Below are positions 13,513 to 57,862 of a stretch of 64,000 nucleotides of DNA, in pieces. The stretch's first letter is position 1. Each line of letters opens with the position of its first letter. The stretch spans positions 62,001-126,000 of the forward strand of contig RSEE01000038.1 of NCBI GenBank assembly GCA_003971905.1, in the 5' to 3' direction. Source of the stretch: Moniliella sp. 'wahieum' (lineage: Eukaryota > Basidiomycota > Moniliellomycetes > Moniliellales > Moniliellaceae). Under the pieces are notes generated by a model. It was not told the origin of the DNA and did no database searches. It saw nothing but the letters and a program-made list of their open reading frames with translations. Both the position numbers and the translations under genes were made by a program.

Positions 13513-13532
13513 GGTGACCGGTGACCGGTGAC
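13513..13532. repeat. Heptamer array, ACCGGT class
   Basis: GGTGACC repeated almost three times with an exact 7-bp period. It lies about 240 bp upstream of the Zn2Cys6 start codon. Confidence 0.9.
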
Positions 13533-13980
13533 TTGCGGCCCCGTGCCTGTGCCTAGTATTGCATTTGCAGCCTGTCCTAGGCCCCATGCCCAGATCGAGC
13601 CCGCCATGAGTGTGTCACACTGGGGTAGAGAAGGGTACGAGCCAGGTGTAGCACCAAGACATCGCCCATGTGGGGACGGAACAGGCGCGTCCGCCGTTCA
13701 CGCGCACTGCCCCCGCGCTCAACCCCTTGGAACTAGTGCCGGCGCCGCAGAGGCGGCTGTTTTTGGGCCAATACGCAGGCCGAATGCCCGGAGCGGCCGA
13801 AGTGAGCACACATCCTGCGGGGGGTGAGACATGTGGAGCTCCGCACCCGGATAAAGGGCACTGGCACAGTGGGGGCAGGCACTTTCAAATTTCAGTGGAG
13901 GGGCCGGTGCAATGGCAAGATTGTGATACATGTAATTGCAGGCGGGGTGGCCGGTCGGTGGAAGTCGAGTCTCACATTTG

Positions 13981-14051
13981 ATCTCAGATCTCACCACTCC
14001 CTGGTAGCTTAGCAAGCGCTTAGGCCTTACCCGTTACCCGTTACGCGTTAC
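13981..14051. repeat. Heptamer arrays, AGATCT, AGGCCT and TTACCCG/ACGCGT words
   Basis: A double TCAGATC word at 13981-13994 is followed at 14018-14051 by AGGCCTT, TTACCCG, TTACCCG and TTACGCG in register. It shows several heptamer types side by side. Confidence 0.75.
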
Positions 14052-16441
14052 TCAGAGCTCGGTATCCGTACTCAGTACCGGGCCACACCACCGCGCGAAG
14101 CATGATGGCCACGGTCACACATCGGGGATCACGCATCACTAGATCATCGAACACTCAAAGTGCATCACGCGCATCACTCCCTCCGCCCACACGGGCCAAT
14201 GCCTGGGCAGCACACGCCCTGATGCGCCGCTGCAATGATTAATGAGGGTACCCAACCGGAGGCAAAATGCAGCCCAATGATCACGCAGAGGGTGCATAGA
14301 AGACATAGGCTGGCATCAGACTGCCCGCTGCAGTGCAGCTCTTTTTTCCAGGCGCGGCGAACTGCAAAACTGTTTCTGATGCAATGCGGCGCGTTCATTT
14401 GCACCATTGCATGATTTGTACGATCTAAGAGTCGATGATTGATGATCGAGTGATCGAGTGACAAAACGATGAACATATGCGTTGAAAGTTGAACATTCCG
14501 TACGCCCAGTATTGTATACTCGCGTGCTATTACAGTCCGTGATGCTGTAGCGGAAATGCTGAGAGGAAGGAGCTAAGCGCTACAAGCGCCAATAAGAGAA
14601 AGACTATATAGAAATCAAGCTGGTGAGGCAATAATGGACGATGCGGCATCTGGCAATGCAAACTGGTATTAGGAAACTACCCACAAACAACTATATAAAA
14701 GCCAGCAGTATAATCTGCATGCTATATGGGAGGGCAGGAAGCAGGACCACACCTTTTGTTTTCTTTCCATATCCTCACACGCACGACACTACGTTGACCG
14801 AGAAGAACTTGAACGTATTACACCAGTTTACGCCTGTATGTCCTCGCCCCCGCCCCCCATTCTGTTGCTTATATTGCCCCCCCCCTCACCTATAAGCAAC
14901 AGCTGTACCTGTCATGGATGGGCCCCGCCTGGGGGTTAAAAAGGGTACAATCCCTTAGTGGTCCTAAGGTCGATTCGCGGTAGTTGCGTGCTTGAGCTGT
15001 GGTTGATGCGTCCGACGCGGAGCAAGGGACAATGAGCGGCCTCTCAGCGTATATATAGCAGAAGCGGCTGCAGAAGGTTGTGTGGCAAAAGACCTCGTGT
15101 GCATCGGCCTGGGCAGTAGTAACGTGTCTGAAGCCTTCGGGGCGCAGGGACGGAGGGGAGTGGCAGCGGTGGACAAACACCTCCCGCATTAGACTGGGAC
15201 TTGAGACGGCGTGGCTGGAAGAGGATCCACACCGCTGGACTGGGGCTTGCCTTCGACGTGGCTTCAGGAGGTTCACACATTTGATACTGCTATAGCGACA
15301 TGGGAGCGGAGAGACGGGAGCGGCAAGCCGAGGGGGGCCAGCGAGAGGAGGCGGCCAAGGGGGGACGATGTGGCTTGCATTAGTACCTGATCAATTGGCG
15401 AGGACGGGAGATGAAGACGCCAATAGACCATCATGGGGGGAAACCCACGAAGCATTACTTACAGACAGGGACTAAGAGGGCAATAATGAAACAGAGAAAT
15501 ACCGGGTAACAGAAGGGGAGAACAGGGGGGACTCTTGCCGCTTGGGCAACCTAGAAAGTAAGGTGCAACCTAGAAAGGTATGGTAAGCGTGCGTGGGAAG
15601 ACTACGGTCATAAAAGGTGCTGACAATTCGGTTGCACGATTATAATAGCCACCAACTTCTACTTGTTGGGCATGGGATGACGACTGTTGCCGCGCGGATA
15701 CACAGGACTGGTTGCCGTTTGGGCCTCCGCCTGGTAGAGGTTGATGGGAAAGGGTTCTGCTGGACTTGGGGCAGAGAGCAGGCGAGCCTCAGTTCGGGTC
15801 GGATCAGATCAGCTCCGATCCTCTCGCTTTATTGGGTAAGTTTTTCTCCTCTTCCACACTCCAATAAGGAAAAACAGGAGACTGACACGGCATGTCACTA
15901 AACTCTCTCATTGATGAGAAGCCATCGAGGCCGGTCAAATGAGACGAAGCCTGCTGAACCGGGCGGAAGTCCATCACAAAATCATATAGCATCACTCGGC
16001 CCCCACTTGCGCATGAACCGCCGGACAGGGAAGTGTCGCGGCTTCGCTCTCATTAAAAACTCTATCGCCGATTATATGAAAAAAGCTTCAATAATATGAT
16101 GGAGAGGCTGCCCCCACTTGCATTTCTCTCCATTTAATATTCATCTCCCTGTGCCTCTTCTCACCTCCACACAGCCTGTTGTGGGGACACTACTAGTAGT
16201 GCAGTGTGCCAAGAGCAAGCCAGACTCTCGCACTCCTACTAAGCCACTTTCACCCCACAGGCGCTATAGTACCTGATTCCGTCTGGACTGAAGCTGAGAC
16301 GCTCCTCTCCTTTTTATGCTAGTTACTTTATATTAAGTAGTATAGGCCACTCATAGCTTCGCCTTCCCTCTCTTCTCAGATCTCACTCCCGTCCACTCCC
16401 TCCTCCGAGTCCCACTCCGCTTGTCTCTACTTTCGCTCGCT

Positions 16442-16468
16442 CACCGGCCTCACCGGCCTCACCGGCAT
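16442..16468. repeat. 9-bp tandem repeat CACCGGCCT
   Basis: Three near-perfect copies of CACCGGCCT. The unit contains the palindromes CCGG and GGCC but has a 9-bp rather than a 7-bp period. Confidence 0.85.
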
Positions 16469-17497
16469 CAGCAAACAATATAGGGTTTGTTCTTGATTGC
16501 CGTTTCGCTTCGCATCGGCATCCGGCTACATATCAGGCGGGTTTAGGCGTCACGCAGCGCGCGTCACGCGCTCAAGCTCGCAACGTCCAGCGTACATTCA
16601 AATTCGGCAGCGCTCTGCACGCTCCGGTACGGACCGGAACCGATCGCTCTCCGAAGACTGAGAGACAAAAAGGATGATCTCCCTGGTGGTGGCGCGTCCA
16701 TGCAGTTGCACCCCATTCTCTAATCCCCCGTCGGGTAAAGTCTTCCCATGCAACTGCCCCAGGCTGCCATCCTCTCTCCTCTCCCCCTATTATACGCGAG
16801 ATTTGTAATGTAGACAAAAAGTTCACGCGCCTATACTACTCGCAACACGCAACCTGTAACCGTTGTAACCAATGTGTAACCCATATGACATCCTGACACT
16901 TTCGCATCCCATCTCGGTCCGACTTCAAATATACACTGTCGTCGGACAGCCGCGCGACTTCCTACCACACCCGCAGGAGTCTATATTAGGACGCCTGACC
17001 CACTCTTTTGGGTCGCCATGATCTCTACTGTGCTTTTTGCGTTACGGCTTGGAGGTCTTAATGCGAGTCGAACATTCCCCCATTCAAACTTCATCAGCAC
17101 CCTCACCCCCCCCAACACTCACTCTCTGCCCCCAAACTTGCTTAAGTCCGTGGACCAAAGGCTGAGCCGCGATGCAGTCTTGGCACACGTTGTTCTGTGG
17201 TCTACACGCGCCACTCGCATCACCATGTATAGACACATTGCGCCACCAGACAGACGAAAGGGCCTCCCCGGTGGCTCCGTTTGCCACAGTATGACGATGC
17301 TCTCATATCATACAGGTGTTCTCGCTCAGTGCTTCGCCCGGCCTCGCCGGCCACTGTGAGGCTAATATAGTAATGGCCGGGCCCTTTTTTCACACTAATG
17401 CAAAGACTGCGCCATTGCCTCTCCCACACGTCTTATAAAGCACCTTCGCGCTCGCCAACCCTTAGTTGCCCTACAACAAGTCTCCTCCCTTCATATT

Positions 17498-19531: not shown

Positions 19532-20717
19532 TATTCCTCTCTTATTGATTTGAGAAGCTTGACACATACCTCGCATTCTCCGTGAGGCCGTGAGGGCCTT
19601 CTCCACATTTTTGCTAATTGTGACGATATTTTCTGATGTGCCTCTTCTCATCTTTCTCTCTTCGTGGCATATGCTTCATTCTTTTTTGTTGTCAATGCGT
19701 CAACAGAGCTTGTCGGTTTTGCCCTTTGTTCTTGTTGCGCAGCCTTCTGTCTTGTCAACATGACTCTCGCACACACAAGACACTCTCTACTGGACCCTAG
19801 CATATGCGCACGTACAAAGACCCTACACTCTGTGGCTCTTCCTATACATAGCCCCTGCAGGAGGCTTTTTTTTGCAGTCTGCTATGCATGTTCTTATGCA
19901 TATATGCCGCGTTAATTAAAAGGCCCTGACGCCACGGAGGTTCCGGACCACCCCCACCCCCTCCAAAGTCTCCGCTTCGGCACCACCTGGCTCTCGCTCC
20001 CCACTCGCTCTCCCCCCCTGCCACCGAAGTGACTGCAAAGACCGACGGCCCTCCATCCCCCTCCCGTCAGCGTATGTCGGGTCTCTCGAATCTTGCGTTC
20101 TGGCGGCCCTTTACCTAATGTACAATCATATCGCCCCTGGAACATGTGGATTGTGGCAAAACAACTCCCGACTACAAGAGGCACGCCCAATCAATTAAGT
20201 CCGAACCTCACCCCGTTACGGACATAATATGGCTGCAAACGGGGATGTATTACGCCGCCACGGTCGCGAATAAACGATGCTGGAACATTTTGGAAGCTGT
20301 ACCGCTTGCCCAGCGTTTAGTACACAGAGGTACTGTTGCACTGTGACTCACAGCTGACCCCCCGTGGTGGGCACACTCGATGATCGATAATCGTAAAGTA
20401 CTCAGACTGAGTGCCAGTGTGCACCGAGTATACTCAAGTGCCGAGTGCGGGGTTGGTACATGAGCATGACTGCCTCTGTGCGCACCAGCGGGGTTAGCGG
20501 CCTCAGGGGCATGGCACTGCAGGGCACAGCGCGCAGTTTAGCGCCCCAGCCCCCCAAACAGGCACTGGCCCTGTGACTCCCTGCCGCAGCCAAGAAGGCG
20601 GGGGGGCAGTACATGGCCTATCTCCGCCGCCCACCCACAAACCGCATTCCTGCTCTCCGGAGGCCGGAGTGGCCATTTCTTGCCCGCCCTCGCCACCATC
20701 TCCTCCTCCCCTCCACC
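19532..20717. other. Intergenic, no gene seen
   Basis: 3' flank of the upstream hypothetical gene and promoter of the next. No heptamer array is evident here. The sequence just before 20718 is C/T-rich, as in other fungal promoters. Confidence 0.4.
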
Positions 20718-21514: not shown

Positions 21515-23266
21515 TTAATCCCTGGCCCTCCTTTTTTCTCCATCCACGACTCTTTACTCCACGATCCAGCTTCCCAATCTCTGTGCCTTTTTCCAAGCTC
21601 GGTTTCTCTCTGTCTCATTTATAAGGCCGTATTGACCTTAACCATGTGCCCGCCCCCGACCCGCTGAACCCTGCTTATGCCACCAAAGGACTCGGCCTGT
21701 TGATGCCATTTATCCCCCCTACGCTGCTGGTGATCTACGCACCCACCCTTCGCCAACAAATACGGCTCTGTGCGCTCTCTTTCCATTAAAAAGATAGCTG
21801 TTGAAAAATGTTAGTATTGCATGTGGAATGTCAATGCACAGATATAGGACCAAAATAGGATTCTTGGACTTGTCCCCTTCCAAAGATCAGTGCCCGCTCA
21901 CTGCTGTGGGCTCATAGCGGCTATTATGCATGTTACCCTTCAACTGAGAGAGCTCTTCCCGGTTAACCCCACACCATCATAAGAAAAAGGAATAATACAA
22001 AAAACGAGGCGGAGAGGGTACGCACCACCTTGGTCATCTGCCCTCGATTCCAAGAGGTATATAGCAGCGGAAACACATTCGCATTCCCCGTACTTGTCGT
22101 CGACGGGCTCACGGTCCCGCGGCTGCCACAGCTTGCGTTTGTATGCAGGACCATAGTGTGTACCCGATAACTCTTCTACAGCAAATGTGGTACTATTACC
22201 GCTTTGCTCGTAATGTCATACGCCCACACAACACAGGCCCGTTAAGACGTGTGGTGCCCTCGTTGAGTGGAAGCTGAATCCGGGTATTCTGCAGCGCGGG
22301 AAAATCCAAGTTGGTAGCCACACACCAGGAGTGCCCCGGGTGCCAAAACACCGAGAAGGGTAGCTGCCGGTGGGACCATGGGGGCGGGAGGAAGGAGCTG
22401 GGGAGCGAACTGAAGAAAAAGGAGGCCGGTCGAACCGGTTGAGGAGGACGGTTGCATATGGAATGGTGCCTCATTCCAGAGGAAGAAGAAGCAAACACAC
22501 GGTAAACAATAACATGTATGGTGAGATACACACACAATAAAGGGGACAAGGAAGAGCTATAACAGGGTCATACCATCACAGCAGGTGGGTATATGTGTGT
22601 GGCCCGTCTCAGAAACACTGCTCAAATTCCAATACCACACATCCGCTCTATCTTTCCTGCATCCAACACCCCCCCCCTTCCCCATAATCCCCCTTTGTCC
22701 CTCGCCCCACGGCCTCAGACATCCGCGGATAATGACCATGTGCCCGACGCGGATTGGAACACTGTGCTCTTCTCGCCTGCCTTGGCATCGTTGACTCCAC
22801 CGCTAAGCTTGACTAATTGAGCCACGCTGAGCATTCTTCTTGGCACTCTACCCTCGTGGGTGTAATACCTATATACTATGATCTGAGCCTCTCTACGATA
22901 TACGGACGTGTGTGTGTTTTGCGACAACCGATACCAAGTGAGTAGGTATAGGAGAATGAAGAAGTTGGGGGTTGAGGCAGAGAGCAGCTCTAGGCCCGTT
23001 GGAGGATGAATGATCAATGATTAATGAGCAATGATCGACATGCCGTAGTGGTCATTAGTATTGTAACCCAAGCGATGCCCAACTACTTGATCGACGCAGC
23101 CGGAAATGAAAGCCAACCTGCAAGCCACATTGCGCTCGAAATACAAGCGCACGACATCACGTAAGCAGCCAGGCGACGTCTTTTTATCTCCTCGCTCGTC
23201 CGCCGGCCGTGGCCGCAGGCTGATCTCAATAAATCTGCTCATACTTCGTCACTTGGACCCATCACC
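21515..23266. other. Intergenic, with a possible minus-strand gene
   Basis: Minus-strand pieces between about 21950 and 23000 have coding-like character: LWQPRDREPVDDKYGECEC, LGVLAPGALLVCGYQLGFSR, and a hydrophobic start with NFFILLYLLTWYRLS. They do not join cleanly and match no family I know. If real, this would be an intron-containing gene for a small membrane protein. The last 250 bp are the Rheb promoter. Confidence 0.3.
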
Positions 23267-28386: not shown

Positions 28387-28420
28387 ACCAGTATAATGTT
28401 CTGGAATAGCCTGCAGTTCC

Positions 28421-29858: not shown

Positions 29859-29900
29859 GCTTCAAGCTTCAAGCTTCAAGCTTCAAGCTCCAAGCTCCAA
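29859..29900. repeat. Heptamer array, AAGCTT class
   Basis: AAGCTTC repeated about four times, then two diverged AAGCTCC units, all in 7-bp register. Confidence 0.95.
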
Positions 29901-29933
29901 ATGTGACATGTGACATGTGTGACTAGTGACTAG
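29901..29933. repeat. Heptamer arrays, ACATGT and ACTAGT classes
   Basis: TGTGACA repeated about 2.6 times (hexamer ACATGT), directly followed by ACTAGTG words. It abuts the preceding AAGCTT array. Confidence 0.9.
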
Positions 29934-29988
29934 CCTAACGCGTAACGGGACTGTTGAACGTTGATTGCCGGCTATAGAGAGCGACTAT

Positions 29989-30042
29989 AGTCACTAGTCA
30001 CTAGTCACTAGTCACTAGTCACTAGCTAGTCACTAGTCACTG
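29989..30042. repeat. Heptamer array, ACTAGT class
   Basis: ACTAGTC repeated about seven times over 54 bp, with one internal slip (CTAGCTAGT near 30023-30030). Confidence 0.95.
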
Positions 30043-30071
30043 GCCACATAGTATAACAACACTCGTAACTA

Positions 30072-30121
30072 TTAGGTCTTAGGCTTTAGGCCTTAGGCCC
30101 CTTAGGCCTTAGGCCTTAGGC
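30072..30121. repeat. Heptamer array, AGGCCT class
   Basis: AGGCCTT repeated about five times, with one short interruption near 30098-30101. Confidence 0.95.
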
Positions 30122-30476: not shown

Positions 30477-30498
30477 GTCACCGGTCACCGGTCACCGG
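30477..30498. repeat. Heptamer array, ACCGGT class
   Basis: ACCGGTC repeated about three times, ending about 190 bp before the nitroreductase start codon. Confidence 0.95.
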
Positions 30499-32754: not shown

Positions 32755-33466
32755 GGTTCTGGTTCGGATGGCTGCTTGTGGTCGCGATGACCGATAAGAA
32801 ATCCAGGTTCGTGTACGTCCAGTCGTGGATGAGCTAGGGTTACCGGTTAGGCAATGGGCAGTAGGGTTACGTGTCCCCTACCATATCAATAGGCCGTGTT
32901 CAACAGATTCTCCCCCACCTAGTGTTCGTGTCCTGCCCACACATGCATATCAACTGTCAATCCATTGGACCATGGTAGGAAGCAGTCTCTCAGATCTCAG
33001 ATCTCATGGCGCTAGGCGAACACTTATGTGTGCCTCGCGGACAATACGGTACGCCACATCGAAGCGAGAACACAGGACATATAGTTCGTCCCGTCGATGA
33101 TCCCGCCGAGATGAAACTTCGGCGAGAGTACAAGGCCTCGATGACCACGGCCGCGGGCCTTGGAACTTGCGTGTTATGCGTGCAGTCGCAGTCACAGTGA
33201 CTTGACCAGGCACCAACCAAGTGGGCGCAGATTCCAGCGGAACAGAGCGGAACGCTCGGTTGAAACTGAACGTTGAACATTGTGCTCAAACTTGTGGGCA
33301 TGCACACTGACGCCCAGCCTTTGATTCTGGCACCACTTGGTGGCGTCTGCTCACCCGCTGCTTTTTCTCCGCCTTTCTTCGTCGAGTCGTAGTCGCGGTT
33401 ATAACTGCGTGCTTTCCCGGCTTTCCCACCTCCATCTTCACGACTATCATCACCACCACCGCGATT
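32755..33466. promoter_or_regulatory. Divergent intergenic region of peptidase and HOM2
   Basis: About 710 bp between the two divergent start codons. It contains an AGATCT heptamer array at 32987-33006 and no gene. Confidence 0.5.
32987..33006. repeat. Heptamer array, AGATCT class
   Basis: TCAGATC repeated with an exact 7-bp period (hexamer AGATCT plus C). It sits about midway between the divergent genes. Confidence 0.9.
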
Positions 33467-39402: not shown

Positions 39403-41080
39403 GATGGTGGTCAATGGGGGAGGGGGGGGGGGGAGGGAAAGGTGCGGCCAGGAAGCGCACGCTTACAACTCAGTATGTTATAGGTGCGACAACAGGGACC
39501 GGCCGAACAACAGTCTCGAGTATGCAGCAGTTCGCAAGTGTGGATGTAATGCACCCACTGCGGCAGTGTTGCTCGCCGGCAATAGTATAAGCGCATTTCC
39601 CTGCAACAGCCACCAGCCGATTTCGATCCCATATGGTGACTGGCCCACCGCGTGTATAGTTAGGCGGCACTGCTTGTATCCATTCGCACTAGTAAGTATT
39701 CATCGGGGTAAAATTTGATGGAATGTATACAGAGTCCCTCTATCTCCCAACAGAGGGGTTAGCCACTTCCGTATTAAGACTCCCCAAAACGGAGAGGCTC
39801 CGTAGGTCAACCAGGGCTAAAAGAGAGGAACAGGTTAGAATCAGCCTGATTAAGCTGGTGGTCAAGGTTGTATGCAACTGTCACATGGCGGGGCCCAGCC
39901 TGTGAGGGCCCACCCGGGAGTGCTAATAAATGATACGATCTTCCTTATAGGAAGACGGTAATAGGGTCGACTTCCTGTATGTTCATACTTGGGCGTTTGT
40001 TGGAGAAGAAACAGCGCGGCAAGGGACAAAAAGGAGATACCTTTCGGAGTATAGCAGAGAAGGCTGCTTGCAAGGCAAAAGGCTACGTATAGGCACCATC
40101 AGCATGGAAAGTATAGTATAATGTCTCTGAAGCCGTTCGTACTTGGGGACGGGAAAAGAGGCGACCAGCGACAACGCTGCCCAAATTTGGATTGAAGCGA
40201 GAAAAACACGGATTGGAGCTGTGAGACTGAAAGTTGCGACTGGAAAAGACTCCACGCATTAATAGGGTAAAGCCGAACACTGAGAGACTGATAGTCGCAG
40301 AGCGCGCTCCGTCCTTACAATGGTGAAGAACCATGGATCAAACGAAGAGGACATGAACAGGGAAGAGGCGACTGTCGTCGCCAATTAAGGATACGTTGTA
40401 GCGTGGGTGACCGCGCCCGGAGACCACAGTATACATGTGATTGTACGACCCCTCCGCGGCCATGGCTTACTAGTTGTGTGGGTAGGAAACGAACCCTGTT
40501 AACTGACTGGACTGACAAAGCATCGATCTTTAGATTGGAATGGATCCGCAGACAAAGTCAAAGCCTCCTGGTGCCAGGAGCAGGAATATGGAAAGGGATT
40601 TGGAAAAAGCTCTGTTGGCCCACCGAGCCATTATGCTCGCCTCTTTTGGGACTTACAAGAGTGTATACACGGGTTTTTCGATGTCCCACCACCGGCCAAC
40701 GTTCGTCTTCATCGCGTCGTCAACGTTCGCCCGCACTGCTGCTGCGCATGTGCGGGAATGAAAGTGGATCAGAGCTCAGACTGAGCGCTCAGCCTGAGTG
40801 GGCTCCGCTATGGCTCCGCTGGCTCGCCAACCACAGGGGTCGCTTTTCGAATCATATCACGATGTTGAGAGGGATGGATCGCGGGGGTGTAGTGTGGCAA
40901 GCACTGATGGCGCGGTTCCGCGAGACTGGCTGGACTTTGTATCCGCTGCCAGCTACCTGTGGGTACGCAACTTGCCTGCGGCCCGCCTTGCCTGTTCGTC
41001 GGAGTTCGGTGGTGCCGGCGGTGCCGGCGATGCAGCGACGGATCATATAGGCCAGATTATCGATGATGCAATGATGATAG

Positions 41081-41142
41081 TGATGCATGATGCACGGTGC
41101 ACGGTGCACGGTGCATGGTGCCTGACGCGTGACGCGTGACGC
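41081..41142. repeat. Heptamer mosaic, ATGCAT, GTGCAC and ACGCGT classes
   Basis: One ATGCATG unit passes without loss of register into about three GTGCACG units, a GTGCATG, and then ACGCGTG repeated about 2.7 times (41123-41142). Confidence 0.9.
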
Positions 41143-41176
41143 CACACGGGCATTGCAGTATGGTGCCTGAAGCATG

Positions 41177-41214
41177 TGCATGATGCATGATGCATGATGC
41201 ATGATGCATGATGC
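41177..41214. repeat. Heptamer array, ATGCAT class
   Basis: TGCATGA repeated more than five times with no error over 38 bp. Confidence 0.97.
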
Positions 41215-41370
41215 AGGGCGGGAGGGTGCGGCCGCCTTTAATGAGGCTGGCTGGGGCCCAGCACCCCCAGCGTCGGCCCGGAACTGAAAAGGAGGCCAGG
41301 GGGTGGTAAGAATTAGTAACGGACGCATGCCCATGTGAGTACCTGGGAGCTTCCCACCACTGCCTGCCTG

Positions 41371-41388
41371 ACGTTCAACGTTCAACGT
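41371..41388. repeat. Heptamer array, AACGTT class
   Basis: ACGTTCA repeated 2.6 times. It lies about 130 bp upstream of a candidate start codon. Confidence 0.9.
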
Positions 41389-44001: not shown

Positions 44002-45140
44002 TCACTCGTTCGTTGTACGCGGACGCTTCGCCGTCCGACCATCATCCCATGAGCCGTGGGTGCGTCCCCGGTGATGGAAAGAAACGTCGGAGCGGTAATT
44101 GTCCCTGGCATGCTCTTGTCGGTCGATCTGTGGGGCGGGAGCAAAATTGGGACGAGCAGGGAGGCGGGCCATGCGTGGCAGGCGGGGGAGAGAGGGTTCA
44201 TCACGGGCGCAGGAACCATGGGCATAACGGGTATGCCCATTGGCGCCATTTGCATCATTGGCGCCATTGGCACGTTCATTCCCATTGGCAGTGCCGGACC
44301 TCCTTGGTTCCGATTCCCACGGGACTGGAAGTCCCTTCCCCCCGCCCGCGGCCGCGGCCACGTCCGTCTCCATGCCGCGCAGAATCTTTGGGCAACACCG
44401 CATACGGATTCCCCCGGGCCGAAGAGGACAACTCTGCTTCCATTTCTGACCCTTGGTACGGATTCTCGGTCCACCACTGTGCCAACGTCGAGGCATCCTG
44501 CGCTGAGCTAGTAACAATGTAGACTGAACCCTTGGACTTGCCATTGACCTTATGCTCAGAGAATGAGGTGATTCCGGAGGGATAGGGTCACCCCTGCCTC
44601 AGCCGCAGCTTGGCGGATGTCCTCATCCGTAGTCCACTGCGAAGCGAAGGGTTAGTTCCACTTTCTCGTGAAGACGGGTGGAAGGGGACATACCCAGTTA
44701 AACTCGCTTACTGTCAGGGCATCTTTCACATTCGGGTCGGGGTAGTAATGTGGCTGCCAAGCGCGGTTGTCATTAGGGCAGCCTGCGTTGTTCTCGCCTG
44801 TACGATGATGAACCAAGGGATCTGGGTGCATCGAACCACCCCCAGGCGGTTGTTCTGCCGGACTTTGGGCGCGGCGGGGGACTCGCTCTCCCGCGGCCGC
44901 TTGCGCAGTGTTGCAGCAGGCGGGGCTGGCTCCTGCGGCGGATCTTCTGCGACAGCGGCAGCGACGGGGGCAGGGGTGATGTAGAAGTCATCTTCCTATG
45001 GGGGCAAGGGGGTGCAGCATGTCAGTCAAGGGTCTTACCTGTTGTCTGCCTGGGTGTTTAGGAGAAAGGAGGATGGAGGAGAAGAGCGCGTTGCAGGAGA
45101 GGGAGGCACTCACGCCATACAGGTCAAAGTCGTCTTCCAT
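44002..45140 (-). CDS. CPSF6/CFIm68-like RRM protein
   Basis: Probable nuclear mRNA 3'-end processing factor. Exon 1 from the ATG at 45140 codes MEDDFDLYG, and a 118-bp intron (44996-45113, GTGAGT...CATAG) follows. Exon 2 starts EDDFYITPAPVAAAVAEDPP, then has a basic/Pro stretch with RKRPREGE. The RRM follows: a VSEFNW block (44700-44710) and WWTTDEDIRQAAAEAGV, the WTTDED motif typical of CPSF6/7, probably across an intron near 44640-44690. Then come an HKVNGKSKG turn, a strand with SVYIVTSSAQDASTLAQWW and an NPYAVLPKD loop. After the RRM there is a GRGRGRGRG tract, a Met/Pro/Ala-rich segment and a basic tail (RTAKRPRTTNE) ending at 44002. Two or more frame changes occur around 44540 and 44300. 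The RRM is firm, and the CPSF6 assignment rests on the WTTDED motif and the acidic FDLYG start. Confidence 0.75.
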
Positions 45141-46604: not shown

Positions 46605-46630
46605 CTTCAAGCTTCAAGCTTCAAGCTTCA
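46605..46630. repeat. Heptamer array, AAGCTT class
   Basis: CTTCAAG repeated about 3.7 times with an exact 7-bp period. Confidence 0.95.
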
Positions 46631-47614: not shown

Positions 47615-47621
47615 TATATAA
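47615..47621 (+). promoter_or_regulatory. TATA box of the ADH gene
   Basis: TATATAA about 71 bp upstream of the ATG at 47692, followed by a C/T-rich leader with CACCACAAG. This suits a strongly expressed gene. Confidence 0.7.
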
Positions 47622-47691
47622 CCTCCTTCCTCACAGGCCTCCCAGGCTCCTTCCTCACCACAAGTCTTCAGTCACTTCTAGCAACACCAAC

Positions 47692-48834: not shown

Positions 48835-49504
48835 ACACCCCCTTCATGCTTTTTAACGACCTGTAAACACCACTCCATACACTATTACATGGATTTTGCC
48901 ATCCTATCTTCCAGTTATGTAGCTGTAAAAAAGGCAAGTATTATACTTTAGTCGATATATACCAACGGCTAAACGCTTTTGGCTTTAACCAGTGTGAGGG
49001 CGAGAGCCATTCTGGCCGGGCAATGCTGTACGTTGTGAAGAAGAATATACTAATGCCGCACCGATTTGTCCCTCTCCCACTGGAAAAGGCCTGAAGAGCC
49101 TCGTTGAGAGAGGGATCAAGTTGATCCTACTTCATCGATTTCATCATGCACATGTCGACCAAGTTTCCGTATCTACCCTCGCGCTACATGCAGTTTTTAG
49201 AGTCACTGTTCACGTTGAGGACGTTGAGGCGAGCCCCGTTTCCCCCCTTGTTGATTTAACGGCTTCAAGCTCAATCGGTGATAATCGATCATCGATCATC
49301 GATCATCGAACACCTACCTGGTCACCGGTCAATCCAGACCAGGTCAGATCTCGGAGACCTAACACCAATTCCGCCTTGTTCCGCCGCGCCGCTCTGCCCA
49401 TGTGGCATGTGGCGTGTACAAGGCGCAACGAGCCAGACACAATGCGCCCTCTACTGTTGACTCCTTGAGCCACCTGCCCACACAACTAGCCTGTTGCCAC
49501 CAGC
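48835..49504. other. Intergenic with heptamer array
   Basis: 3' flank of ADH and promoter of the PDI gene. It contains the ATCGAT array at 49284-49309 and a CACCGGTCAA word after it. Confidence 0.5.
49284..49309. repeat. Heptamer array, ATCGAT class
   Basis: ATCGATC repeated 3.7 times with no error, about 200 bp upstream of the PDI start codon. Confidence 0.95.
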
Positions 49505-50131: not shown

Positions 50132-50697
50132 TCTTGTTCCCCTTCAGTGACTTGATACTGCTGTGCTGTATCATTTGTATTCCCGTTATTCCGGCGCACA
50201 TGTACTCGCGCCCCACGTCTCTTTACCAATGCCCTGATGAATCTCAGATCTCATACTAGACTGTTTGTGTTGCAAACCTTCCAAAGATGAAGCGTCTGAA
50301 AGTACTCTTCAGGAGGTGATCCCTACCATAATCATCTGAAGAACCCTCCTTCAGCTTAAGCCGGAAGTGTCACAGGTCTTGCGAGCAGTACTGGCGGTAG
50401 GCGATGGAAATGGTATTCCGATCCAAGGAGAGCTATAGACCTGTGTGGAGTCGTGAGAGGCTCGGAAGCCAGAACCATTGTTAGCACCGGAAGCCGGATC
50501 ATTTTCCCGCGATACGCCACCCGTGCTGGGCCTCGTGTCACATGTCACTGAAGGTCGATGGGCTTTGGACTTCTTAGATCTTAGGGTAGACAACAGGACG
50601 GTTATGCAGACAAGGAATCAAGAAGATGCAGTCATCACAATCTCGTCTGCTACAGAGATTAAGCTGCAGGGGTTCTATATTAAGGGGGCAAAAAACT
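50132..50697. other. Intergenic, no gene seen
   Basis: 3' flank of the PDI gene and downstream flank of the tRNA gene. No heptamer array is evident. Confidence 0.45.
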
Positions 50698-50792
50698 GGT
50701 CAATATGAGGCTTGAACTCATGACCTTGGCATCACCAACACTCCGAACAGGATGTATTAGTACCACGCTCTGACCAACTGAGCTAATCGACC
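50698..50792 (-). tRNA. tRNA-Ile(AAT) with a 22-nt intron
   Basis: On the minus strand the acceptor GGTCGAT pairs with ATTGACC (one G-T pair). The D arm is GCTC...GAGC, and the anticodon stem TGGTA pairs with TGCCA. The anticodon loop is CTAATA followed by A after a 22-nt intron inserted between positions 37 and 38, giving anticodon AAT. The T arm is ATGAG-TTCAAGC-CTCAT. All arms fold and the intron position is canonical. Confidence 0.93.
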
Positions 50793-51457
50793 CTGATGAA
50801 CGCAAAAATGCAAGCTCAGATCAGTTGTACATATTCGGCTCAAACGTGTGACGCTTGCTTTGCTTGTGGTGGGATCAATGATGTCGCCAAAAGGTCAGCC
50901 CGGTCAGGCATCAGAGCCTCATAACTGGTAACCGGAACCCCTTACCTCAGGCCCCTCATGCCGGCCGAGGTCGGGCTCCAGTGCGAGTTAACATCCTGAC
51001 AGCCAAAATCGAAATATGCGCGCATACACTAACCCTCTGCTGGAGTTGCTCAGCGAGCGCCCACATGGCGCCCACGCGCCCACATTCCATACCGCGCTTA
51101 TTGCGCGCTTATCTAATGGCGATCGCACCATCGGTTCATCCCGGTCACCGGTCAGCGGCCAGCGGTCACCGGTCAGCGGCCAGCGACCGCTCATGCCATG
51201 AAGCCTGAGGAAGCCTCAGCCTGTGGCCTGTAACCGGTAACCTGTAATGCATGTTCGCCACCCCTGTGTGTGGTAGCCAGTCGCAGCGTGGCTGGCGCTG
51301 ACAATGACGTGACTGGTTAACCCCACCTGTCCCGCCTCTACCCCAGTTACCGTAAGCGCGCTATCCATGGCGGTGGCGGGGAGACCAATATCTCCCTCTC
51401 CTGTCTTGTCTCCCCTCCCACTACAGCCTCCTTGTCTCCCCATTGCCTCCTCTCACC
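50793..51457. other. Intergenic with a 21-bp higher-order heptamer repeat
   Basis: No gene is seen. It contains the repeat at 51142-51188 and GTAACCGGTAACC words near 51230-51245, then a C/T-rich leader before the small ORF. Confidence 0.5.
51142..51188. repeat. 21-bp tandem repeat of three heptamers
   Basis: A 21-bp block made of GGTCACC, GGTCAGC and GGCCAGC occurs twice in tandem. It is a higher-order form of the ACCGGT-class heptamer. Confidence 0.93.
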
Positions 51458-51718
51458 ATGGCCAGCTCCTTTGGCGCGCGTAAGCTCCTTCTCCCGCTTA
51501 CTGGCGTTGGCGCGGCGGTGGCATGGTACCGTACCGACCCGACCCCTGCACACAATCTCGCCTCGGACCCTTCTGCTGGGATGCGCCTTGGCCCGCCCCT
51601 CTACGGGACACAACCCCCGCCACTCCTTCCCCACACGCACTGCTGCCAATGCGCAGGTGTGCTTGTGCCGGGCGTGAAACGACCCAAGAATCCACAGTCT
51701 CTCCTCGTGGTCACTTGA
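51458..51718 (+). CDS. Small protein with N-terminal hydrophobic segment
   Basis: The start is CACCATGGCC after a long C/T-rich leader, a strong context. It opens MASSFGARKLLLPLTGVGAA and continues VAWYRTDPTP, which could be a single membrane or mitochondrial targeting segment. The frame ends at 51718, but the part after about residue 45 has poor coding character and may be out of frame. Small inner-membrane proteins such as MICOS subunits begin similarly, but the resemblance is too short to call. Confidence 0.4.
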   Translation: MASSFGARKLLLPLTGVGAAVAWYRTDPTPAHNLASDPSAGMRLGPPLYGTQPPPLLPHTHCCQCAGVLVPGVKRPKNPQSLLVVT

Positions 51719-53150
51719 TCGGCAATCTGGCCGCTCTCCACGGTACCCAAGTCCACCGGCTGGATGCTGATAAGGCATTGTCCCATTTCAAGAGAGCTTC
51801 CTTCGACTGCCCTGGCGAACTGTACATCTCGTGCTTTCACTCCCAAGGCGGGTCTCTTCAATTCGCACGACAATAATGACTGTGGGCTCCGCATCCCCTC
51901 TATACCCCTTTCTCTGTGCTGCTTCTACCCGTGTGTCTCTGTTGCCTTCTTGTGCGACTCATTACTATTGTATGCATTTTAAGAGGGACAGTGTAGAGGC
52001 AGAGACGACAAAGCTATTGCTTTGCTCACACTATAGCTCCACACATATAGCTGTGTCATGCGTAAAAAGGGATTGCTTTCTCTCTCTCTCTCCCTTAAGA
52101 AGCTCGTATGGGAGATTCACCCAACAGCATATGAGATGCATTCCTAATATGATTTTCTTGTGCTACTCTCATCCTGGGGTGTGACCTGTGGCCGACGAGA
52201 TCAACAGCCAAGAGAATTTCATGTTGCCGCTTTCTAATAGGGGTTTATACTTAGGAGGGGTTGGAGTTGATGGTTTGGAAGAATCATTAGGAAGACGCAG
52301 CTCCTCTCCATGGTGATTTCCCTTGTATACTCGGGCGAAGCTATTCATTACCTTCTAGAGGGCTACGGATGCAAGGACGGAAGAATGGGTCCATCAGCGC
52401 CTGTTAAGTCCCATCCGTCGGGTGTTTTTTCTCAGAAGTGTAATACCCGAAAACTATACCCTACGTGGCCCGCCATGGCCGCAAGGGCTCATCAGTACGA
52501 TGCCTTGTGCCCATCGCGCCCAGTCTTTTTGGCAGAACCCTTTCTTTTTGCTTCTGCGCCCGAATACGCAGTGTCAGCACCTTTGAGAGTACGGGCTGTG
52601 CGTATAGTTTTTACCTCTCTGGAAAGTTCCTCACATTCTGTCTATACCCTTCATGAAGAACTTCAGGTCTGGTTCCTTCTGTATATATGTAGCCCTGCCT
52701 CAGGCTTGGTAGCTATGTGGTCCTTATCGAGCACCCTGACCCTGTTCCAACCATTATATTCCTCCCTTGCCCTTCCACCTTCTACCACCCTCAATACGAA
52801 TTAGCGACGCACGTCGGTTACATTGCAAGCCGCGACTACTCTCAGTAGCGCTGCGCTTGCTCTTCGTTAGGACTGCGTTTGATTCTGCTTATTATTACAG
52901 CGCATCGAGTGTGGTAACGCACCACAGGTAAACCACGTTGTCCCGGGGCCTGTTCCTAGACCTCTTCAACGGGTCTGACGACCTACGTATGCTGCTCCTA
53001 CCTCGGAGGGTCTCTGATCTGTGGTATTTGCAGGCAGCCACTCAAACTAGAAGGTCTCTGCCTTTGCCTCTACACCCATTCGGGTCGACCACAGGGTCTG
53101 AGGCTGAACATACCGTACGTGGCTCCGATTGGCCGCCCAAGATTTGTACC

Positions 53151-53204
53151 CTTAAACTACAGGTGTGGCTTAAACTACAGGGGTGGCTTAAACCACAGAG
53201 GTGG
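53151..53204. repeat. 18-bp minisatellite, three copies
   Basis: CTTAAACTACAGGTGTGG occurs three times with four differences in all. A run of about ten C follows 10 bp later. Confidence 0.93.
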
Positions 53205-54575
53205 GTCCCACCTCGCCCCCCCCCATAACACAGACTTTTACTCTATCCGACTCCATATCCTCTCTCTTGACTCTTCTCTCAGATCACTCTCTGGTTCCCT
53301 TTGCATTTACTCTAGGTGCCTCTCCTTGCTACACCACTCGGGCGTAGTCCGTCACGGCACCACTGTGTGCTCCTCAGGCCCACACGAATCAACCTTAAAC
53401 CCCCTTCTACGGTAGAGATCATGTTGCCTTTTCAGGGGGACGCCTTTATTATTATATAGCTTCTGTATATTGCAAAGAGAGTATTCATGAGAGAGGCGCC
53501 TCTCTGCTGGAATGTTCTCTTCCTTAAAAGGGTGGGTTGTCAGGGGAATGTCAACCATTTCGATCGCATCCAAAACATGTCGTGTCCCGCCAATAATGAA
53601 GAGGGAATACAATACGCCGCTAACAGAACAGGGAAAAGTGGTGATGCCATTCGAAAAAAACGAACAACATACTAACAAAAGAGCTCGTTGCTCTCCTCGT
53701 CGAACAAAAGAGTTGGTGTTTATCTTATGGCTCTTCACATATCCGCCATAATCATCCGTACCCTCTCTCTCTCGCTGCTGTCCGGTGTAGGGGCACCACT
53801 GAACAGAAAACCGATATAAAGTTTGGATGTTGTGCTGACAACCCATTGTTGGCGTCTAAATATTGGGGGAGTGAGCTAGTGAGGGCGGTGAGATGCATCC
53901 CAGCCGAACGTCGGTTTTGAGGGCGCGAGATGTAAGACCGGAGGAACCAAGGGTGGGTGATGAACCTCTGGAAATGTAGAGGAATGCAATCTCGGTGGTG
54001 GTGGTTGGGTCTAAGCCTTATGCCCAAGTAGAGGAGACAGGGGTTCAAACAAGCCTGAGTATACAGGTGGAGGAGGCTGGAGGTCAAATAAGGGGAAAAG
54101 GGTGATAAGGTGCCTTTTGGTCTATGTACGGGACCGCGGGTCCCCACGAGGCGTTGGACGAGGGCGAAGCGCTCTCCTGTCGCAGACATGATGTCATGCA
54201 GAACGAAAGATGTTTATTGATGACATGGATGTCAGTAGTTCGATGTCTGTACGTCCCCCCCCCCTACTACAGCGTCAACAGGCCAGCTTCTGGCCTCAGC
54301 CTAGGCTCTCAAAAAGGTACTGACGTCGAATACTTCGGCTGCCGCACACGATAGTTCCGGTATTAGGTTTCAGTACTATACCGTTACTTGCCCGTATGCC
54401 ATGCAGAGGCGCTCGGGCGCGCGCACGCACCCACGCACCCTCTGTTTGAACGCTGGGGCTGCACACTGACTCAGTGCAATAAGATCTAAGATTTAAGATC
54501 TTTAGTGACTATTATGGTGAGAGCTACGACAGGTTATAGTAGTCAGTATAGTGATTCCAAACTAATAGATGACTT

Positions 54576-54597
54576 CAAGCTTGAAGCTTGAAGCTTC
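54576..54597. repeat. Heptamer array, AAGCTT class
   Basis: AAGCTTG repeated three times. The outer linker bases differ, so the whole block reads as an extended inverted repeat. Confidence 0.9.
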
Positions 54598-54756
54598 GTG
54601 CATCATGAACGGTGATCGGTGACCGGCTGAGGGGCTCCTCAGGTCCTCAGACCCTCCTCAGAAGTCCCAGGGCCTCGCTAGTCACTGTGGGGTTGGCGTT
54701 GCGTTGGCTGGGGAATTGGCGGAGCCGCTGAGACGCTACGCGGACCCTGAACGACC

Positions 54757-54776
54757 CTGAGTACTGAGTACTGAGT
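54757..54776. repeat. Heptamer array, AGTACT class
   Basis: CTGAGTA repeated 2.9 times (hexamer AGTACT plus G). Confidence 0.92.
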
Positions 54777-54971
54777 CTCAGGCTGCCTCAATGCCTCAGC
54801 CCTAAGCCATAGGCCTGTCCGAGGTCTCAAGATCTGAGAAGCGCCCCCAAAAGGGCCTGACAAAAATTGGGGTATAGCTTGGTCCCACAATCGTTCACCT
54901 GACCTATACGTTAAACGCTTTTGAAGACGGTTCTTCACCACGTTCACCGGTCACCTGAACGGCATCGTACT

Positions 54972-54988
54972 CACATGTCACATGTCAC
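54972..54988. repeat. Heptamer array, ACATGT class
   Basis: ACATGTC twice in tandem with a further partial unit. An ACCGGTC word lies 25 bp upstream. Confidence 0.92.
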
Positions 54989-55080
54989 AGCCACAGCTCA
55001 CACGCCTATATACCCCACATGCTTACGCGCTCATTCGGACACGACTCACGGTACAAAAGAGATTTATTAGTTACCTCCGG

Positions 55081-55099
55081 TTACCGGTCACCGGTCACC
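55081..55099. repeat. Heptamer array, ACCGGT class
   Basis: ACCGGTC twice in tandem plus a partial unit, preceded by GGTTACCGG. Confidence 0.92.
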
Positions 55100-55676
55100 T
55101 AGTATTAGCTACCTGTAACAACATCCATGACATGTGACATGCATGATCTGCCTGCCACTTGTCCACTGGAGGGAAAGAACTGTGGGACCAAAAAGGCCCA
55201 AAATATAAGCCGGCGCAGCTGCAAGTCACACGATCGTCGACCTGGGCCATGTTCCATGTTCAGAATGTAGTGTGGGGGACGATAGAGTGCCTACCCCTCG
55301 CTGAGCACGCCCCTTTGCCTCCTTTCAATCCCCGGCCGCTCCAGTGCCTCCTCAAGCCTCCTCCACACATGTTCTTTCTTCTGCAACCGCGCAACCCCTT
55401 GTCCCCAGCACCAGCCATCTCACCCTTTTCACGCGGCCTGCGTCGCCAGATGTCATTAATTTAATGGGTGATGGATGAGTTAGTCGGTGACTAATGACTA
55501 GGGAATCGATGATGCGGAGACTCAGTGATCGATGATATGTGATGTCGGCGACAGGGTTACATTAGCTAAACGGTAACATTGGACGTTACTAAGTACTAAG
55601 CGTGAGCGTGAGCGCCGACCGCTGAAGTGCTGAGGCGCTGAGGCTTGGAGCTAGCATATCGCAACCACCTCAAGCT

Positions 55677-55703
55677 CTTCAAGCTTCAAGCTTTAAGCTT
55701 CAA
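55677..55703. repeat. Heptamer array, AAGCTT class
   Basis: CTTCAAG units with one CTTTAAG variant, 27 bp in all. Confidence 0.85.
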
Positions 55704-56147
55704 ACCCTTCCGAAGGAGTGGGTGGACCCCATCCGACCACTACAAAGACCCTGCAGCAGGATAGGTCCGGATCGGGCCCGCGCCGCTGTTTCAACCGAAG
55801 ATGTCCAGAAAGTCGCAAAACTGCACAAATTGGCATTTCGCCTTTGACAGCCCACGAGCTTCCACACTTGCGGCGCAGCGGGGGTTCGGAAAAATGCAGG
55901 CCTGTTCGATATTGGCAGCTTAGTACCTCCTGTGTGTATAATGCGCTGTTACATGTTACCAACGTGCCGCAGTAGTGGTCACATGTCAAATGTCAAAAGC
56001 ATGTTGCGAAGTACGTCGAAAGTCATGCAAAAACTCTAGGCCACACCCCTCCTAGCCAAGCCCCCCACAAGCTTTTCATTCTTCCGACTCCTGTCGCCAC
56101 CACTCCGCCCGCAACCTTCCTCAAACCGTCCATCCACCACTCCGACA

Positions 56148-56272
56148 CCACCGAAAACCCCGTTACACTACCGCCTACCACCGAAATAGCCCAGCTCCGC
56201 CACCACTGAAAACCCCGTTGCACTATACCATCGAAAAAGACCAGCTCCCGCCCACCGAAAAGACCAGCTCCA
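56148..56272. repeat. Degenerate CCACCGAAAA repeats before the bZIP start
   Basis: Five imperfect units of about 20-30 bp, each beginning CCACCGAAA or a close variant and ending either CCCCGTTACACTA or GACCAGCTCC. The last unit ends directly at the ATG of the bZIP gene. It may be transcribed leader or promoter. Confidence 0.7.
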
Positions 56273-56934
56273 ATGGCTCGTGGACGCCGACCTCGAAGTG
56301 ATGTTGCCCCTACTCGCGCCTTGGAGGTGCGCGTGCGTTCCGGGAGCGCCGAGGAAGTACATTGCTGATCTCGAAAGTTAAGCATAATCCCCACACAGGT
56401 GCGCAGCGTTACGCTAACAGCCCCTCTCCCTCCAAGACACAGTGAGAGAACTGCGACAAGAGAACACCAATTTGCGGGCGACGCTGCAGGCCAGCCATCA
56501 GCGCCTTCAGCGCGCCACCGCAGCAGATTACAATGGATCGAGTGTACGAGCAGCGCCAAACCACTCTCGCGGACAATCCACTGGCACCATCTTCTGGGCC
56601 AACCCCAACAGTTGATCGGGGTCCCGATATCAATGACTGACGTTCGAACTGATGAGCTGAACGGTCGAATGGGACATCGGACCAAGAGGCAGAGCTTTGT
56701 TTTGAGCTTCATGCTCCGTTGCCAGGAGCCGGTCCCGGTGGCGAACAACGCATATTTCGCAACGGCATCGGAACGTTCCTCTTCAATGAACCAAGCACCA
56801 ACATCCCACCAGGATGGTACATCACTCAGCCCCCAGATATGCGCCCAACAGGGAGGATATTTCCATCCTCTTGTCTCTCTCTGCATTCGGGCTACGAGCC
56901 CACTGGGCATCAACGACTGATGATGGGCATGTGA
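56273..56934 (+). CDS. bZIP transcription factor
   Basis: Nuclear DNA-binding regulator of the fungal Yap/AP-1-like bZIP type. The ATG at 56273 gives MARGRRPRSDVAPTRALEV. The basic region, read with two one-base adjustments near 56330-56355, is QRAFRERR followed by KYIADLE. A 60-bp intron (56377-56436, GTTAAG...CCAAG, branch GCTAAC) joins IADLE to NTVRELRQENTNLRATLQ, the leucine zipper with heptad Leu and the conserved Asn. After the zipper the reading continues through AADYNGSSVRAAPNHSRGQ. Beyond a further shift comes GEQRIFRNGIGTFLFNEPST, followed by NIPPGWYITQPPDM. The open frame ends at 56934, but the 3' end is not certain. Confidence 0.78.
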
Positions 56935-57845
56935 CGAATGGGCTATGTCACGAGTATAATACGGAGTTGTCTCGAGTATCTACGTCGTATATCAACACTA
57001 CTGGCTGCCTGGGTGTTTGTTCCAGAAGAAAATGCTGGATGCCAACTGCCGTTCGGATTACCTCAAGCGTCTGAGGAATCAGAGGCCAAATTATTTAACA
57101 CCGATCTTCCGTATCGCAACAGATCGGATCATCTTTGAACAATCGCTGGCCCCACAGCCATGACTCGCCCCCATTCACAACCGGCGCGCACTTGACCAGC
57201 TCACCCCCGGCCTCGTAACACAGAGACATCCTTCCTGCCTCAACCTTCACCTTTAACACCGGCACCGGCGTTCCCGGCAACTGCCAGGGCGGCGGACACA
57301 CCCTGGGCCTGATAGTCATCCAGTTTCGCAGCCTCCTCTATCTCCTCATCCTCATCAGTCGTTCGGCCTTCATTCCAACAGCAAATAATGTTGAATTGTG
57401 TCCCACTAACAACCAACCAAACAGCAACAATCAGCAACCGTGATGTGCTGTCTCGTACGTGGGCACAACTGTGTGTGCTTTTACAAATGATCCACTGCAT
57501 TTGTTGAGGCTAATACGAGATTTCGCGTCACTTTTTCCGAGCCCCCCATGTCACATATGCATGCCAACGTTGTCTGTTGTGACGTGCACTTCATTTTCAC
57601 CCTCCATAGTTGGACAGATGTCATGAGCGAGAGCCTAGCATTTGGCAGTGTGCCTCGTACGTCCTTTGCTCGTCACGTTTTTTTGGCAAAGGCTATATGA
57701 TGGCAGTAGTTGCTGCACACTACATCCAGTTTGGAAACGAATGAGGGGGGGGGCAGATGGGCCTAGTTGGCGGGTGGGCCGTGTTGACCTCCTGATTTTG
57801 GGATGGGACCTCGAGCTGGGAGCGTGCGCGCAGGTGGCGCTGAGC

Positions 57846-57862
57846 GCGCTGAGCGCTGAGCG
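57846..57862. repeat. Heptamer array, AGCGCT class
   Basis: GCGCTGA repeated 2.4 times (hexamer AGCGCT plus G), with a near copy immediately upstream. Confidence 0.9.

Follow-up and report, generated by a model that had tools for sequence, protein, structure and literature searches.

The window analyzed here, a stretch of 64,000 nucleotides (C38:62001-126000) from the 69.5-Mb, 223-contig assembly of Moniliella sp. 'wahieum', carries many tandem arrays with an exact period of 7 bp, the unit of which holds a palindromic hexamer of the form A....T plus one linker base. Allele differences, together with a genome-wide fingerprint, show that the arrays obey the rule 5'-abTNA-3' -> 5'-abTNA-b'a'-abTNA-3', in which b'a' is the reverse complement of ab and the turn TNA is mostly TCA or TGA. 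The palindrome A-b'a'-ab-T is the product of an inserted mini-hairpin, ab-TNA-b'a', and not its cause. With a probability of roughly two in three, the arrays are footprints of recurrent templated insertion, with one 7-nt mini-hairpin written per event through a proposed flap fold-back. The original prediction had assumed a process which recognizes palindromic hexamers and copies them with a one-base spacer, for instance by hairpin-type copying; a process of the hairpin type does fit, but pre-existing palindromic hexamers need not be recognized, as the insertion itself writes the palindrome.

The source of the DNA is a fungus, as documented by a fungal Zn2Cys6 domain, the eukaryotic size of the genome, and a kinase exon whose best named relative is a protein of Exobasidium rhododendri (48% identical across 64% of the query); recoded stop codons and a prokaryotic origin were discarded. 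A window exon matches contig C9 at 98% in reverse orientation, and the assembly carries both alleles, at least at the window locus. Comparison of the two alleles yielded 46,751 aligned bases with 2.8% mismatch. Most of the window was comparable; 1-4336, 41543-44056, 51107-52598 and 58089-64000 are among the parts for which no allele was compared. Allele matches of at most 200 columns, on the other strand, or overlapping a better match were left out, as were insertions/deletions (indels) with fewer than nine matches in either 12-column flank. Repeat statistics refer to a sample of 264 kb, composed of the window and 20 unselected 10-kb stretches from contigs C1-C20.

How arrays start can be seen directly from the allele differences. 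Among 911 clean indels, 17 are exactly 7 bp long, and 11 of these convert abL into abLb'a'abL, with a two-base stem ab and a turn L; one of the two indels of 14 bp fits the same hairpin form as two units, giving 12 fitting sites in all. At other lengths, the two-base-stem form was met in 1/5 indels of 8 bp and in 0/15, 0/16, 0/3, 0/6 and 0/3 indels of 5, 6, 9, 10 and 11 bp, respectively, while a one-base stem, which is close to trivial, fits 23/85 indels of 3 bp and 3/23 of 4 bp. In seven of these 12 cases the five-base seed is present in the short allele without a full 7-mer to copy, and all seven show a TNA turn (compare, for example, CTAGGGTTAGGC with CTAGGGTTACCGGTTAGGC). These unit-free sites are located at window positions 19699, 21551, 32837, 33307, 41040, 50535 and 55125, with the long form residing on C9 in five cases and in the window in two. 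According to the allele alignment, the window features are:

19700..19704, minus strand: seed GT-TGA; C9 has GT TGA AC GT TGA
21552..21556, plus strand: seed CT-TTA; C9 has CT TTA AG CT TTA
32838..32849, plus strand: de novo event GG TTA CC GG TTA; the C9 allele has GGTTA only
33308..33312, minus strand: seed CG-TCA; C9 has CG TCA CG CG TCA
41041..41045, plus strand: seed GA-TCA; C9 has two extra units
50536..50548, plus strand: de novo event TG TCA CA TG TCA, a 13-bp tract; the C9 allele has one TGTCA only
55126..55130, plus strand: seed CA-TGA; C9 has CA TGA TG CA TGA

The hexamer palindrome is absent at the seed from the short allele at all seven sites (the site at 55125 does have an ATGCAT, 13 bases downstream). 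Because the seven short alleles hold the abTNA seed without such a hexamer, the palindrome is not required beforehand. As the recognized object it was rejected; outside the tracts, A....T palindromes are hardly more frequent than the other kinds, with a ratio of 0.071 compared to 0.066 for G....C, 0.068 for T....A and 0.062 for C....G. Outside the TNA rule, a 7-bp indel at window 21919 resembles an inverted copy of its flank (ATAGC-G-GCTAT) and is perhaps another small templated insertion.

The same sites bear on ordinary replication slippage, according to which palindromic heptamers would expand via hairpins with one mismatch per unit, as in CAG/CTG repeats. Slippage needs a prior unit, and the full unit is lacking in the short allele at 7/12 sites, although it is present at the other five, to which whole-unit duplication can be fitted. 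Length differences between alleles, as slippage would produce them, are common: an aligned allele exists for 56 window tracts, of which 21 are equally long in both alleles and 15 are absent (<12 bp) from the other one. The arrays also fold in silico into hairpins with one mismatch per unit. The two accounts differ in the tract which they leave behind. One event copying a five-base seed round a two-base filler should give a fresh tract of 12 bp in one of two registers, whereas slippage predicts a minimum of 14 bp in any register. A....T tracts with a C or G linker number 53 at 12 bp, 30 at 13 bp, 25 at 14 bp, 4 at 15 bp, 3 at 18 bp and 11 at 19 bp, such that the peaks at 12 and 19 bp correspond to 5+7n, and 43 of the 53 twelve-bp tracts lie in the two predicted registers. 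Tracts of 12 bp with an A or T linker amount to 15, nine of them in the predicted registers, and among the 12-base tracts fitting the rule in one orientation, the turn is TNA in 50/83. The shoulder at 14 bp, where 25 tracts exceed the one-event expectation, suggests that plain unit duplication contributes as well. Furthermore, slippage gives no reason for the period of 7, nor for the preference of A....T over the more stable C....G and G....C units. It already fails for the birth of arrays and is improbable as their overall explanation, while it probably contributes to their growth.

The grammar of the unit emerged from a scan of the motif S-L-S'-S-L over stem and turn lengths. A clear excess was confined to period 7, with stem 2 and turn 3 (245 found, 115 expected); the same tracts can be scored as stem 3 and turn 1 (188 found, 53 expected), and a few sparse cells with similar ratios hold counts of at most 10. 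Direct repeats of T-N-A with stem 2 and turn 3 carry the templated filler in 154/201 cases, 12.3 times the expected 1/16, whereas the figures for other turns of this geometry are 1/58 for A-N-T (0.3-fold), 6/80 for C-N-G and 5/100 for G-N-C; in the remaining classes of outer bases, ratios above 2 rest on four matches or fewer. Resolved by triplet, the filler is templated in 137/172 cases for TCA/TGA, 17/29 for TAA/TTA and 9/52 for CCA/TGG, and in 16/102 for ATG and 14/84 for ATC, the last two including other registers of units such as ATGCATG. The spacing from TCA to TCA peaks in steps of seven (199 at 7, 115 at 14, 100 at 21; all others up to 30 range from 45 to 104), and no spike was present for TCA to TGA. 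Of the 376 TCA pairs at spacing 7 on both strands, the filler fits the left flank in 65, the right flank in 50 and both in 74; 13 are of the crossed dupR-invL type and 96 fit nothing. The middle base N is copied along with the triplet, being the same in 216 palindromic TSA pairs and different in 17. When 50 minimal tracts selected for the TNA turn were compared (fits in both orientations and tracts less than 25 bases from an end were excluded), no conserved position was found outside the unit. Compared to the original description of the unit as A....T plus a single base, the invariant is narrower, namely the triplet TNA, mostly TCA/TGA, set between 4-bp palindromes. Different palindromes can be chained in phase by TCA, for example in TCAGATCTCAGATCTCACCGGTCA, as would be expected if either flank of TNA is usable; use of the other flank would start a new palindrome in phase.

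All 12 A....T classes named in the original prediction were recovered as exact 7-bp tandem tracts at the coordinates given there or at most one base away. The AGGCCT array is likewise real, as an imperfect array at 30072-30121, but its perfect tracts begin at 30086 and 30100 and not at 30072. The arrays and clusters of the window, to none of which a strand is assigned, are:

13513..13532: ACCGGT-class array, 20 bp (period-7 tract)
29859..30121: cluster of AAGCTT (29859), ACATGT (29901), ACTAGT (29919, 29988, 30026) and AGGCCT (30086, 30100)
30477..30498: ACCGGT-class array (period-7 tract)
32988..33006: AGATCT-class array (period-7 tract)
41081..41215: cluster of ATGCAT (41081, 41177), GTGCAC (41091) and ACGCGT (41123)
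41371..41388: AACGTT-class array (period-7 tract)
46605..46630: AAGCTT-class array (period-7 tract)
49284..49309: ATCGAT-class array (period-7 tract)
54480..55997: dense cluster of AGATCT, AAGCTT, AGTACT (54757), ACATGT (54971), ACCGGT (55083) and others
57846..58134: cluster of AGCGCT (57846), AAGCTT, ACTAGT, AGGCCT and ACATGT

Several arrays of the cluster at 29859..30121 vary in length between the alleles. In the 264-kb sample, 201 A....T palindrome tracts of period 7 and at least 12 bp were counted, of which the window holds 72 and the remaining 200 kb 129; 20 dinucleotide shuffles of the 264 kb averaged 3.6 such tracts and gave 10 at most. The comparison with shuffled sequence, which had been proposed as a check, thus places the palindromic period-7 tracts far above chance, and the claim that they are not microsatellite noise is borne out. 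At a minimal length of 14 bp and with single-base runs excluded, 184 period-7 tracts remain, comprising 90 A....T, 3 G....C, 2 C....G, 0 T....A and 89 non-palindromic ones. A hexamer palindrome, which makes the unit self-complementary save for one base, is contained in 95 of the 184, the share among all heptamers being 0.104. Of the 34 tracts with at least 20 bp, 25 hold an A....T palindrome and 2 another palindrome. Among the 90 A....T tracts, 78 have a C/G linker and 12 an A/T linker. The 129 tracts per 200 kb extrapolate to about 45,000 A....T tracts in the assembly, with both alleles counted.

Genome-wide, the 20-mer (ACTAGTC)n gave 257 matches (overlapping positions of one array counted separately) and its reversed control 0, and TCA repeated four times at every 7 bp gave 6,448 against 1,198 for the reversed pattern, which also catches some TCA arrays in another register. 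CAG every 7 bp, a C-N-G pattern, was found 884 times and its reverse GAC 2,043 times; these counts are no clean control, because many of the matches listed are TCA/TGA arrays in another register. It had been stated that the four palindromes made up of A and T only do not form arrays. This does not hold, since TCA-W4-TCA-W4-TCA occurs 109 times in the genome and its reverse 0 times; among the 100 matches listed, 80 are TTAA-TTAA, 9 ATAT-ATAT and 11 mixed or non-palindromic, and none shows repeated AATT or TATA. Minimal tracts of 12-13 bp of AAATTT, AATATT and ATTAAT are present in the window, too, as are occasional other palindromes (GTGCAC at 41091, GCCGGC at 3989). With TTAA and ATAT arrays in existence, the occurrence of 12 out of 16 classes describes a bias and not a rule. 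Equal abundance of the A/T-only and the non-A....T classes, which would have spoken against the original idea, was not found; both are rarer. The arrays might avoid coding sequence, as had been claimed: 64 of the 72 window tracts fall outside stop-to-stop open reading frames (ORFs) of at least 600 nt, but 8 fall inside, and such ORFs may or may not be genes.

Heptamer arrays as such are not restricted to this fungus. The exact 20-mer of (ACTAGTC)n occurs in at least 98 bacterial contig stretches (L043-L140), and an AAGCTTC 20-mer in 58 viral ones. With the query unit excluded or masked, the other period-7 tracts of at least 14 bp at the bacterial loci are palindromic in 25/294, near the 0.104 share of heptamers, and those at the viral loci in 3/132; the T-N-A filler is present in 9/381 bacterial and 6/110 viral cases. 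As the bacterial and viral loci lack the rule, the mini-hairpin rule is not general to heptamer arrays. Bacterial STRR-type repeats are 7-bp tandem arrays with no palindrome rule for their units. The likeness to the fungus is therefore limited to a shared 7-bp unit (ACTAGTC) in tandem; the bacterial units follow no palindrome rule and lack the TNA filler, whereas the fungal arrays follow the rule. The (ACTAGTC)n arrays are found in many unrelated bacteria, with several contigs each in single metagenome-assembled genomes, for example Gastranaerophilales CALUSJ, Gemmatimonadaceae JANLGX and Omnitrophota JAQVOV.

A mechanism can be proposed for the templated insertion. The process would start at a nick or Okazaki junction with the 3' end turning into a 5-nt 3' flap abTNA, the terminal A of which would fold back towards its own T; a polymerase would then copy b and a and reach the duplex at the base of the flap after exactly two bases. 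The resulting 7-nt hairpin would exactly abut the re-annealed 5' end (abTNA...), and the additional 7 bp would be fixed by ligation and replication. A single event would give a 12-bp period-7 tract with the palindrome A-b'a'-ab-T. Since abTNA survives each event and a TNA is gained, the same seed can be used again, and such repeat events, together with whole-unit duplication, would build an array of length 5+7n. Base pairing is favored as the reader, since a protein, while able to recognize a fixed sequence, hardly reads 'any four self-complementary bases'.

Several observations weigh against this interpretation. Plain duplication of an existing unit could account for five of the 12 fitting sites, one of which has a TGG turn, and 6 of the 17 indels of 7 bp do not fit the rule. 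The direction, insertion and not deletion, is inferred from the 5+7n quantum, single events being unpolarized with two alleles only; the L012 repeat, tried as a multicopy family for polarizing insertions, has copies elsewhere in the genome and none within the sequence analyzed, so that polarization failed. The 7-bp quantum is not absolute, as stem 2 with turn 4 (period 8) is weakly raised (32 versus 21, 1.5-fold) and relatives with periods 8, 9 and 13 exist, which suggests a slightly broader process that yields the 7-bp event as its main product, besides minor ones with periods of 8 (turn TNAN), 9 and 13. In a comparison of whole-array folding energies for five units, the G....C and C....G units, which are rare (5/184), fold better than A....T. 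Finally, the enzymes of the pathway are inferred only, and altered flap processing in the fungus is an assumption. As for the relatives themselves, period-8 units with a four-base turn TNAN, such as GC TGAG GC GC TGAG GC, occur at window 6262 and 55629 and at L010:3601, L016:1060 and L023:911 (minus strand). Units of period 13 with odd palindromes (GCTCAG-A-CTGAGC, CCTGAG-G-CTCAGG), in which TGA and TCA are mixed, occur at window 40774 and L024:1733-1758; they are possibly compound products of the 7-bp insertion process.

Flap fold-back leaves the T-N-A requirement unexplained: either the T-N-A turn has a property absent from the energy tables, or an enzyme reads T-N-A. Fold stability was rejected as the reason for TNA, or for which units expand, as the whole-array energies point the other way; a comparison of turns is blind, because every turn, even GNA, received the same value of -1.91 from the energy set. 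Loss of mismatch repair was dismissed as well, with no sign of it in the genome, where genes with MutS domains are present (9 MutS_I matches, not typed). Fungi are expected to have a mitochondrial family-A polymerase. A search for family-A polymerase, including polymerase theta, found none, and this negative is uninformative because the mitochondrial enzyme was missed, too.

An enzyme accounts for the only fixed sequence, T-N-A, more easily than pairing does. Harbinger-type elements use 3-bp TNA targets, and a TNA-specific nuclease or transposase-like enzyme might cut at such sites, with locally templated error-prone end joining leaving the 7-bp footprint, as in the excision of a transposon with TNA targets; spacers of 3, 4 and 8 bases do occur in minor templated products. 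On the other hand, neither an inserted element nor its ends were found at the 12 fitting sites (two alleles, about 68 alignment columns each), which hold units and small changes only, and a search for the Harbinger-type transposase domain DDE_Tnp_4 gave 0 matches, albeit in a six-frame exon search that is weak. The duplication here comprises 5 bases compared to the 3-bp target duplication of the transposon, and for arrays to stack up, the enzyme would have to return to one site repeatedly. A footprint of this kind is considered unlikely. Retaining templated insertion as the preferred reading, one may go further, if only tentatively and against the odds, and imagine that TNA is the site of action of an enzyme system, either dedicated or unusually active, by which each event adds one 7-nt mini-hairpin, i.e. 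a sequence-specific, length-quantized process continually founding tandem-repeat loci from unique DNA. If true, such mutations would form a class of their own, and a single genome would, by extrapolation, carry tens of thousands of their footprints.

Two further explanations can be addressed with the same data. Selection might keep the arrays as sites for a dimeric or oligomeric DNA-binding protein, in line with the recurrence of TCA/TGA every 7 bp and the position of most window tracts (64/72) outside the longer ORFs. The four bases between the triplets, however, vary widely and are yet self-complementary, a property that pairing reads and a protein hardly does; moreover, the tracts are unstable between alleles and the insertions occur at unique seeds, rendering this option very improbable. 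An artefact of assembly or sequencing is scarcely credible: nothing was found in its favor, many arrays recur at identical positions in both alleles despite a divergence of 2.8%, and the genome-wide counts extend throughout, while the reversed patterns used as controls gave zero or lower counts.

In the context of known repeat systems, CAG/CTG and CGG/CCG repeats come to mind, which have a self-complementary unit with one mismatch per unit and arrays that change in length. The fungal arrays share with these CNG-type repeats a unit that is self-complementary save for one base and a variable length; CNG-type repeats are built from a fixed trinucleotide, whereas the fungus uses many 4-bp palindromes and its arrays are born from a single non-repeated seed. 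Closest in architecture are the small inverted triplications (SIT) of rad27/FEN1-deficient yeast and of cancers (PMC13334657), with the order duplicated-inverted-duplicated (DUP/IN/DUP) and a spacer, for which 3'-flap fold-back, inverted copying and return to the original template at the nick have been proposed. They are raised by loss of FEN1/Rad27 and have their breakpoints at Okazaki junctions (PMC13334657). The DUP/IN/DUP order recurs here as ab-L-b'a'-ab-L at 12 allelic sites, and both are unstable and hairpin-prone. The size class differs: SIT have a median of 148/160/148 bp, with duplications from 7 bp to more than 10 kb, inverted fragments from 20 bp and a spacer of about 30 bp (PMC13334657), compared to 5/2/5 bp, a three-base turn and a fixed +7 in the fungus. 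SIT, moreover, arise in mutant cells and tumors, with neither a fixed length nor a triplet described in the part of that paper considered here, while the fungus is a natural genome with a TNA requirement. Error-prone 3'-flap maturation of Okazaki fragments, in which the 3' flap can fold back (Sun et al. 2021, as cited in PMC13334657), involves the same intermediate as that proposed for the fungus. According to a review, fold-back copying is also primed by short inverted repeats (5-9 bp, with spacers of 3-12 bp) in yeast that lacks Mre11 or Sae2 function (PMC7999016); there, large palindromic duplications result, in contrast to the two-base stem and +7 insertion described above. DNA polymerases multiply short self-complementary units in vitro (PMC13061963, which also cites a hairpin-coil title by Ogata and Miura); as far as the part of that work considered here goes, these reactions are untemplated, use purified enzymes, yield motifs such as AT repeats and CTATAG, and are not cellular.

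No report of a rule combining the TNA turn with the 7-bp quantum was found in a literature search covering titles and the openings of abstracts of the top-ranked papers, with most subscription journals outside its coverage. As a mutation process, the phenomenon is best read as a new variant of fold-back templated insertion, with the strict TNA turn and the +7 quantum being the features for which that search gave no counterpart. The birth of tandem repeats from unique sequence can be followed directly here, as one-event tracts, empty alleles and the rule itself are visible in one genome. This suggests that very short 3'-flap fold-back, a process proposed on the basis of yeast mutants, can rank among the major sources of mutation in nature and follow a strict sequence rule. 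The simple statistic of stem 2, turn TNA and period 7 is applicable to any genome, and the link to Okazaki fragment processing is testable.

Further observations concern other features of the window and the genome. An 18-bp unit, CTTAAACTACAGGGGTGG, is repeated three times at window 53151-53204 and resembles a dispersed element of about 87 bp present on at least 21 other contigs; this element was also noted at L014:1-87, L020:3181-3261 and L023:6256-6327. Ribosomal DNA (rDNA) was located in 14 places, with 5.8S rRNA matches ranging from 148.6 down to 120.3 bits, and the genome seems to hold diverged rDNA copies. A transfer RNA (tRNA) of 96 bp on the minus strand at window 50697-50792, to which ARAGORN assigned the anticodon 'aata', is probably a misread intron-containing tRNA.

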